64,000 bases of DNA, from assembly GCA_016192145.1 (NCBI GenBank), contig JACPUT010000018.1:372001-436000 (forward strand), read 5' to 3'. Position 1 is the stretch's first letter. Each line of letters begins with the position of its first letter. Made by a program: the position numbers and the translations under genes. Under the pieces are notes generated by a model, which was not told the origin of the DNA, searched no databases, and was given only the letters and a program-made list of their open reading frames with translations. This DNA is from Acidobacteriota bacterium (GTDB taxonomy: Bacteria; Acidobacteriota; Holophagae; Holophagales; Holophagaceae). This document shows positions 60,677-62,208 of the stretch, one piece after another.

Positions 60677-61612
60677 TCAGGATGTGGCCCGTGGGTGCAT
60701 CCGGTCGTAGAGCTCCTTCAGCCGGGCCCGGTGCACATGGGTGTAGATCTGCGTGGTGCTGATGTCCGCATGTCCGAGCATGGCCTGCACGGCCCGCAGG
60801 TCGGCCCCATGATCGAGCAGGTGGGTGGCGAAGGCGTGCCGCATGACATGGGGGCTGACGCGCTCCGAGGGCACGCCGGCCTTGATGGCGTAGGCCTTCA
60901 CGAGCCGCCAGAGCTGCTGCCGGCTGAGGCCATCCCCGTGACGGCCCACGAAGAGCGCATCCGACCGGGGTTTGAAACCGGGCCGCACCGCCAGCCAGGC
61001 TCGCAGCCAGGAAGCCGCGGAATCCCCGAAGGGGATGAGCCGCTCCTTCCGCCCCTTGCCCATCACCTTCAGAAAGCCCTGGTCCAGGAACACGGAAAGC
61101 GCCGGCAACTCGGCCAGTTCGCTCACCCGAAGGCCGGATGCGTAGAGCAGCTCCAGCCAGGCGCGGTCGCGGATGCCCAAGGGAGTTCCGGTATCGGGCG
61201 CGGAGAGGATGGCTTCCACGCTGATCTCGCTGAGGGTCTTCGGCAACCGGCGGGGCGGGCGCGGAGCCTTGACGACGGCTTCCGGGCCCACCGCACCCTC
61301 GCCCTCCAGGCGGAGAAAGGCGAGGAGGGAGCGCAGGCTGCTGCCCATGCGGGCGAGGCTGCGGCTGGCCTTGCCCAGGGTCTGCTGATGGACGAGAAAG
61401 GCGTTGACGTCCTCCCGCCCGAGGTCGGAGGGAGGGCGATTCCGATCACAAGCCCACGCGGCAAGCTGATGGAGATCCGATAGATATCCTTCGGCCGTGC
61501 GGGGACTCAGGCCCCTCTCCACCACCAGATGGGTGCGGAGCTCCCGGAGGCTGGGGCCCCACCCCAGAGGCCAACCGTGTTCGGGCTCAAGGATTTCCTT
61601 CGGGCGGGGCAT
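60677..61612 (-). CDS. Tyrosine recombinase, XerC/XerD type
   Basis: 311 residues. The N-terminal SAM-like domain begins LRTHLVVERGLSPRTAEGYLSDL. The catalytic residues are Arg in ASGLRVSELAEL, Lys in GKGRKERLIPFG, HxxR in HVMRHAFATHL, His in LGHADIS and the nucleophile Tyr in QIYTHV. It resolves chromosome dimers at dif in other bacteria. The start codon directly abuts the 61614-61885 element, so no normal leader is visible; the first 20 residues may be altered. Confidence 0.93.
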   Translation of the reverse strand: MPRPKEILEPEHGWPLGWGPSLRELRTHLVVERGLSPRTAEGYLSDLHQLAAWACDRNRPPSDLGREDVNAFLVHQQTLGKASRSLARMGSSLRSLLAFLRLEGEGAVGPEAVVKAPRPPRRLPKTLSEISVEAILSAPDTGTPLGIRDRAWLELLYASGLRVSELAELPALSVFLDQGFLKVMGKGRKERLIPFGDSAASWLRAWLAVRPGFKPRSDALFVGRHGDGLSRQQLWRLVKAYAIKAGVPSERVSPHVMRHAFATHLLDHGADLRAVQAMLGHADISTTQIYTHVHRARLKELYDRMHPRATS

Positions 61613-61613
61613 G

Positions 61614-61885
61614 GGGGCCTGGGAAGCAATAAATCTTACGATCGCGAAGGGCGCCGACCGAGGCAGGCCAGGCAGGCGAGGCTAAGCGTAGCGGGACTAC
61701 GAGTGCCGAGCCTAACGCCGCATGGCGAGAGTCGCCGCCCTTCGCCCGGAGGGTAGGTGGCTCTCCGCGCCCCCAGCATCGTCGGCCATCTTGTCCCTAG
61801 GCACCACTAGGGCCTGCGACGCCCTTCTTGCTGGATGACGTGGATAGCCACCTACGATTGTAAGATTTATTGCTTCCCAGGCCCC
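61614..61885. mobile_element. 272-bp nested palindromic element (MITE-like or structured RNA)
   Basis: 31-bp ends match as inverted copies with one mismatch (61614-61644 and 61855-61885, core GGGAAGCAATAAATCTTAC). Inside are two large hairpins: GCGAAGGGCGCCGAC (61644-61658) with GTCGCCGCCCTTCGC (61731-61745), and GTAGGTGGCT (61754-61763) with AGCCACCTAC (61846-61855). A smaller CGTAG/CTACG hairpin lies in the first. No ORF and no clear target duplication. It fills the xer-acpP gap. Confidence 0.7.
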
Positions 61886-61971: not shown

Positions 61972-62208
61972 ATGTCTGACGTCCGCAAGAAGGTCATTGC
62001 GATCATTGCCGAACAGCTGGCCAAGCCCGAGGATTCCATCCAGGAGACCAGCCACTTCGTGGATGATCTCGGTGCCGACAGCCTCGACACCGTCGAGATC
62101 ATCATGGCGATCGAGGAGGCTTTCGGTCTCGAGATCCCCGAAAGCGAGCAGGAGAAGATCCGCACCGTCGGCGATGCGATCTCCTACATCGAGAAGCACT
62201 CCAAGTAA
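61972..62208 (+). CDS. acpP: Acyl carrier protein
   Basis: 78 residues, acidic, with the phosphopantetheine-attachment motif GADSLDTVE (Ser37). It carries growing acyl chains in fatty-acid synthesis. AAGGAG 6 bases upstream fixes ATG 61972. fabF follows 97 bp downstream, the usual order. Confidence 0.97.
   Translation: MSDVRKKVIAIIAEQLAKPEDSIQETSHFVDDLGADSLDTVEIIMAIEEAFGLEIPESEQEKIRTVGDAISYIEKHSK

Follow-up and report, generated by a model that had tools for sequence, protein, structure and literature searches.

The element between xer and acpP

The window, a stretch of 64,000 nucleotides from a genome of the Holophagaceae (Acidobacteriota), carries a gene for a XerC/XerD-type tyrosine recombinase (xer) and, beside it, the acyl carrier protein gene acpP. 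The gap between the two genes measures 359 bp, of which 272 bp are occupied by an element built of nested inverted repeats (Table 1). The first-pass annotation described the element as filling this gap, which is correct for most of it; about 86 bp, including the acpP upstream region, are left on the acpP side. A single base separates the element from the ATG of xer. No Shine-Dalgarno sequence remains at the junction (window 61600-61614), where relatives have GGAGGAT-type sites; xer has lost this site. Judged from this junction, translation of xer may be reduced or leaderless-like.

Table 1. Features of the xer-acpP locus (window coordinates).
Feature	Position	Strand	Basis or remark
Whole element, 272 bp	61614..61885	+	Fold, BLAST and inverted-repeat analysis; full-length relatives exist
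Left terminal inverted repeat, 5' strand of outer stem P1 (GGGGCCTGGGAAGCAATAAATCTTACGATCG)	61614..61644	+	
Right terminal inverted repeat, 3' strand of P1	61855..61885	+	
Hairpin P2	61644..61745	+	Contains the inner CGTAG/CTACG hairpin (61687-61701)
P2-P3 linker, CCC-GGA-GGG	61745..61753	+	
Hairpin P3	61753..61855	+	Diverged inverted relative of P2
xer, XerC/XerD-type tyrosine recombinase	60677..61612	-	Neighbour; start codon at 61612
acpP, acyl carrier protein	61972..62208	+	Neighbour

The nested structure reported earlier is real, and its details were recovered. The two arms of P1 are 31 nt long and 97% complementary, with one mismatch. They enclose two hairpins, P2 with a base of 15 nt (61644-61658 / 61731-61745, 93% complementary, the one mismatch noted before) and P3 with a base of 17 nt (61753-61769 / 61839-61855, 88% complementary). 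The short sequence previously seen three times occurs once as GCGAAGGGCG (61644) and twice inverted, as CGCCCTTCGC near 61736 and CGCCCTTC near 61821. The minimum free energy of the 272 bp is -167.2 kcal/mol, as compared to a mean of -110.2 (sd 4.9) for dinucleotide-shuffled sequences (z -11.6), and none of 200 shuffles was as stable. No convincing ORF was found in the element, in agreement with its description as non-coding.

Copies in the genome and structural variants

BLAST detects at least six further copies in the same genome. The covariance model R1, which represents P2, matches the window element at 61644-61753 (E 5.9e-19) and gives 23 matches in the genome, corresponding to about 19 elements, since in several copies P3 is itself recognised by the P2 model, on the opposite strand. 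P3 is therefore a diverged inverted relative of P2. In the window it is covered by a match of model R2 (L001:1626-1746, that is, window 61739-61859). A fold with P1, P2, linker and P3 in this order is shared by all copies of the genome but one, and the CCCnnnGGG of the linker is nearly invariant across the family.

The exception (L086) lacks P3 and is a P1+P2 deletion derivative, and one copy of a relative (L049) lacks P2 and is a P1+P3 derivative. Extra nested hairpins occur in some copies (L078, L005/L091, L012, L060, L192). A separate small hairpin insert, some 43 bp long (TCTCGTGTATCGCCG..GGCGATACCGAGA-like) and nested in P3 of L012, L060, L030 and L192, represents a second palindromic repeat. 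Three clustered tRNA genes follow immediately downstream of one copy of the genome (L085:1501-2011), and in G194 a fluoride riboswitch (L181:123-183) is located near an element copy.

The copies of the genome share only about 60% of their arm sequence, yet each is almost perfectly self-complementary; among 60 copies, a mean of 18.5 of the 20 outer bases are self-complementary. Two copies of a single genome (L024/L096) have cores that are 97% identical and different outer ends, the boundary of L096 being uncertain. The search for copies with conserved ends that the first-pass annotation had suggested, in this genome and in relatives, thus returned many copies whose ends are conserved at the terminal bases only. 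As a test it was too strict, because beyond these bases the ends are merely complementary within each copy.

Distribution across lineages

The family is widespread in Geothrix, and BLAST matches were obtained in 44 of 77 Holophagaceae genomes. In a sample of the phylum, model R1 has matches in 40 of 396 genomes, other families included (f31 and f5; E down to 1e-13). A 21-base pattern taken from the P3 loop was scanned over named genomes and, among the matches listed, falls in Geothrix/Holophagaceae and in Alphaproteobacteria (Thalassospira, Xaviernesmea, Ciceribacter, Rhizobium daejeonense and Maricaulaceae). Most alphaproteobacterial matches have the same folded architecture, but their outer ends differ; in L202, L206, L228, L233, L237 and L248 these ends are unrelated (e.g., TATACCAAGGATCGATGATAG). 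Their P2 side, on which the P3-loop pattern exerted no selection, is matched as well (R1 in L202, E 2e-8), and R2 recognises L202, L233 and L228 on their opposite strand, with E values between 6e-10 and 3e-9. As these matches lie outside the selected pattern, they argue for homology beyond analogy, and the elements of the two phyla are likely homologous.

Among 2.9 million viral contigs there was no exact match to the pattern, and only one plasmid record resembled an alphaproteobacterial copy. Comparison with Rfam at both thresholds gave no family for the element, and no paper describing it was found in the literature on Geothrix or Acidobacteria MITEs and repeats. This family of soil bacteria is undescribed, widespread and MITE-like, with an unusual conserved double-hairpin core.

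Pairing at the DNA or RNA level

The covariation check proposed at the outset gave a very strong signal in both hairpins. Paired cells amount to 97.3% in P2 and 95.1% in P3, and changes on both sides (compensatory) are seen in 29 of 34 P2 pairs and 27 of 29 P3 pairs. The covariation score is 0.42 for P2 and 0.51 for P3 versus 0.12 and 0.15 in shuffles, none of 500 shuffles being as high, in alignments that were fitted to the models and in which related rows count separately.

Covariation is what the first-pass annotation expected of a structured RNA. The copies might act as cis-acting 3' elements (terminators or stabilisers) or as trans-acting RNAs, spread by duplication, with a fold kept because the transcript works; the conserved internal loops and the frequent position of copies right behind stop codons are consistent with such a role. 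However, strong covariation alone is no proof of a structured RNA, and the asymmetry between G-U and A-C mismatches should be checked too. Mismatched cells in P1 (67 G-U vs 59 A-C) and P3 (30 vs 26) display no preference for the pair tolerated in RNA and hence no strand-specific RNA bias. P2 alone has such an excess (49 vs 10), which stems in part from a few shared columns. The G-U share of the stems is 1.4-2.8%, as compared to 5.8% in local tRNAs, a figure derived from the predictor's own pairs. The orientation of copies to genes is mixed, a promoter and terminator scan gave no match, and the presence of the element at individual loci is not conserved. Of the expectations raised by an RNA, covariation was upheld, the G-U excess was seen in P2 and absent from the other two stem sets, and an Rfam match was lacking; a structured RNA is an unlikely explanation. 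Since P1 and P3 lack a G-U excess, the pairing is read as kept mainly at the DNA level, where it would be maintained by selection, or by template switching that corrects imperfect palindromes.

Empty sites, target duplications and stop codons

The acpP locus was compared in 29 relatives. In 28 of them, one being the sole other genome of the genus (L129), the stretch inspected upstream of acpP, which was shorter for four or five relatives (L136, L138, L145, L148, L150), is free of the element. The remaining relative (G035, locus L124) carries an independent insertion of another subtype, with the borders GCAATCC/CTAG...CTAG/TATTCTTGCGGG, where its own relatives read GCAATCCCTCTGTTCTTGCGGG.

These loci also bear on the suggestion that the element is a site linked to the recombinase, dif- or att-like and tied to the adjacent Xer protein. 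The suggestion draws on the contact between the element and the start codon of xer. It was contradicted by the xer orthologues that stand without the element in 28 relatives, which refute it as a general explanation, and by the other copies, which adjoin unrelated genes; practically no credence can be given to it. The location beside xer is incidental.

The family ends are short (GRG...CYC), and element boundaries were placed at these terminal bases blind to the flanks. Of 67 copies, 16 have the same 3 bp on both flanks, where 6.5 would be expected (p 0.0002). A TNA flank is found on the left of 31, on the right of 36 and on both sides of 23 of the 67 copies. At the xer-acpP copy itself, no target duplication is visible. 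Duplications of 3 bp (TNA/TWA), like GRG ends, are characteristic of IS5-group elements and of their eukaryotic relatives PIF/Harbinger.

A marked bias towards stop codons was also observed. A genuine stop codon lies within about 12-15 nt of a boundary in 39 of 63 copies, versus 3.9% of random positions. In 29 of these 63 copies it sits precisely at the boundary, as compared to 3% of the TNA sites and 11% of the TAA/TTA sites that served as controls at the same loci; these counts include copies orthologous between genomes (e.g., L102 and L105), which makes the effective number slightly smaller. Because the control sites include coding positions, where insertions would be purged, part of the excess reflects survival and not targeting. 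A stop codon is preserved after insertion by the TNA duplication, or by TA joined to the element's initial G. Landing at stop codons would be tolerated through this regeneration.

Candidate mobilising enzyme

In G035, an IS5-family insertion sequence (NF033580, PF13340) of about 870 bp (L323:911-1777) is present in several near-identical copies. Those compared are 99.8% identical, and the transposase is encoded in two overlapping frames (DUF4096 + DDE). Its ends read CTA/GGGCCTGTTTTCAAAGTC...GACTTTGAAAACACACCC (right end ACACCC/TAG), in a CTA/TAG context. The elements of the window genome end in GGGCCTGT... (GGGCCTGTATGG..., GGGCCTGTTCATG...), and an element of G037 in GGGCGGGTTTTCAAAGTGG, which are of the same kind. 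The match between the element and this insertion sequence is short, and an IS5-family sequence with similar ends was found in G035 only. Because the element ends resemble those of this one insertion sequence, we infer that a DDE transposase of the IS5 family (PIF/Harbinger-like) most likely acts on the element in trans.

In most of the Geothrix genomes that are rich in the element, no transposase scored above cut-off with the IS5-type Pfam models (PF01609, PF13586, PF13359). In the window genome these models returned only an IS4-like insertion sequence with other ends and a second PF01609 ORF. Both loci were rejected as partners: the former ends in CCACTAGTGTCCGG, the latter lies beside a partial inverted duplicate, and neither matches the element ends. 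A TIR-pattern search of six Geothrix genomes for an insertion sequence sharing the same long TIR yielded only MITE copies, together with a solo end and some truncated or rearranged ones.

That the element is of the REP/BIME type and dispersed by a RAYT (Y1 tyrosine transposase), or is a CGTC-type REP dimer, is a very unlikely reading. Its appeal comes from the head-to-head pair of homologous hairpins and the location at gene 3' ends, both of which resemble REP dimers (PMC3733652). Nevertheless, Y1_Tnp is absent from the window genome and from most element-rich Geothrix genomes, the units measure about 105 nt as opposed to 20-40, and the outer inverted repeats of the element are long and accompanied by TNA duplications.

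Interpretation

Terminal inverted repeats, dispersed short copies without a transposase ORF, target duplication at the family level and empty-site polymorphism are all found here. The element is quite probably a MITE, that is, a gene-less non-autonomous DNA transposon whose ends are short (GRG...CYC) and whose target is a TNA of 3 bp; it is most likely mobilised by an IS5-family transposase in trans. The MITE reading, one of the three first suggested, is the one that the many copies in this genome and its relatives, the empty sites, the TNA duplications and the IS5-like ends support. The body of the element is a near-palindrome, with the inverted hairpins P2 and P3 inside an outer stem P1 of 30-40 bp, and either DNA strand can for this reason extrude a T-shaped structure.

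It is also possible, though we would not call it probable, that P2-P3 is an old DNA-level module common to Acidobacteriota and Alphaproteobacteria. Such a module would keep its T-shaped (cruciform-like) fold through concerted change of the arms, swap its outer ends, ride on different transposases and settle at stop codons rebuilt by its target duplication. MITEs are usually regarded as short-lived, lineage-bound relics; in the present family, a single architecture with its covarying stems is retained in different genera and families and in two phyla, even as the ends change. Whether the folding of the DNA itself, through cruciform extrusion and template switching, is responsible for maintaining and mobilising these elements becomes a testable question, and so does the idea that they can spread with little harm owing to a target duplication by which the stop codon is rebuilt.

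Comparison with known systems

The element resembles REP/BIME sequences and CGTC/GTAG REP dimers in its inverted hairpin pairs at gene 3' ends, and REP dimers can form larger folded structures (PMC3733652). It differs from them in unit size, in its long outer inverted repeats and in the lack of a RAYT in most host genomes. RIME and Sm repeats of Rhizobium are palindromic mosaics too, and lie between genes of Alphaproteobacteria. Over a 300 kb stretch of pSymB of S. meliloti, which was searched in place of a RIME reference sequence and in which hairpin repeats are present, the P3 model gave no convincing match (best E 0.12).

With the IS5-family insertion sequences (NF033580; DUF4096 + DDE) the element shares ends of the type GGGCCTGTTTTC.. 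and a TA-containing target, as in the insertion sequence of G035; unlike them, it lacks a transposase, and its interior is not clearly homologous to that insertion sequence. Prokaryotic MITEs derived from insertion sequences include Chunjie of Geobacter uraniireducens (235 bp) and QMITE2 of Coxiella (reviewed in PMC10969869). Like these, the element is small and gene-less, with inverted ends, direct repeats, many intergenic copies and stable stem-loops. In contrast to them, it is GC-rich, and its two inverted homologous hairpins are conserved across families and, as an architecture, across two phyla. Moreover, the inner part of its ends varies between copies yet stays self-complementary, and its stop-codon bias is strong.
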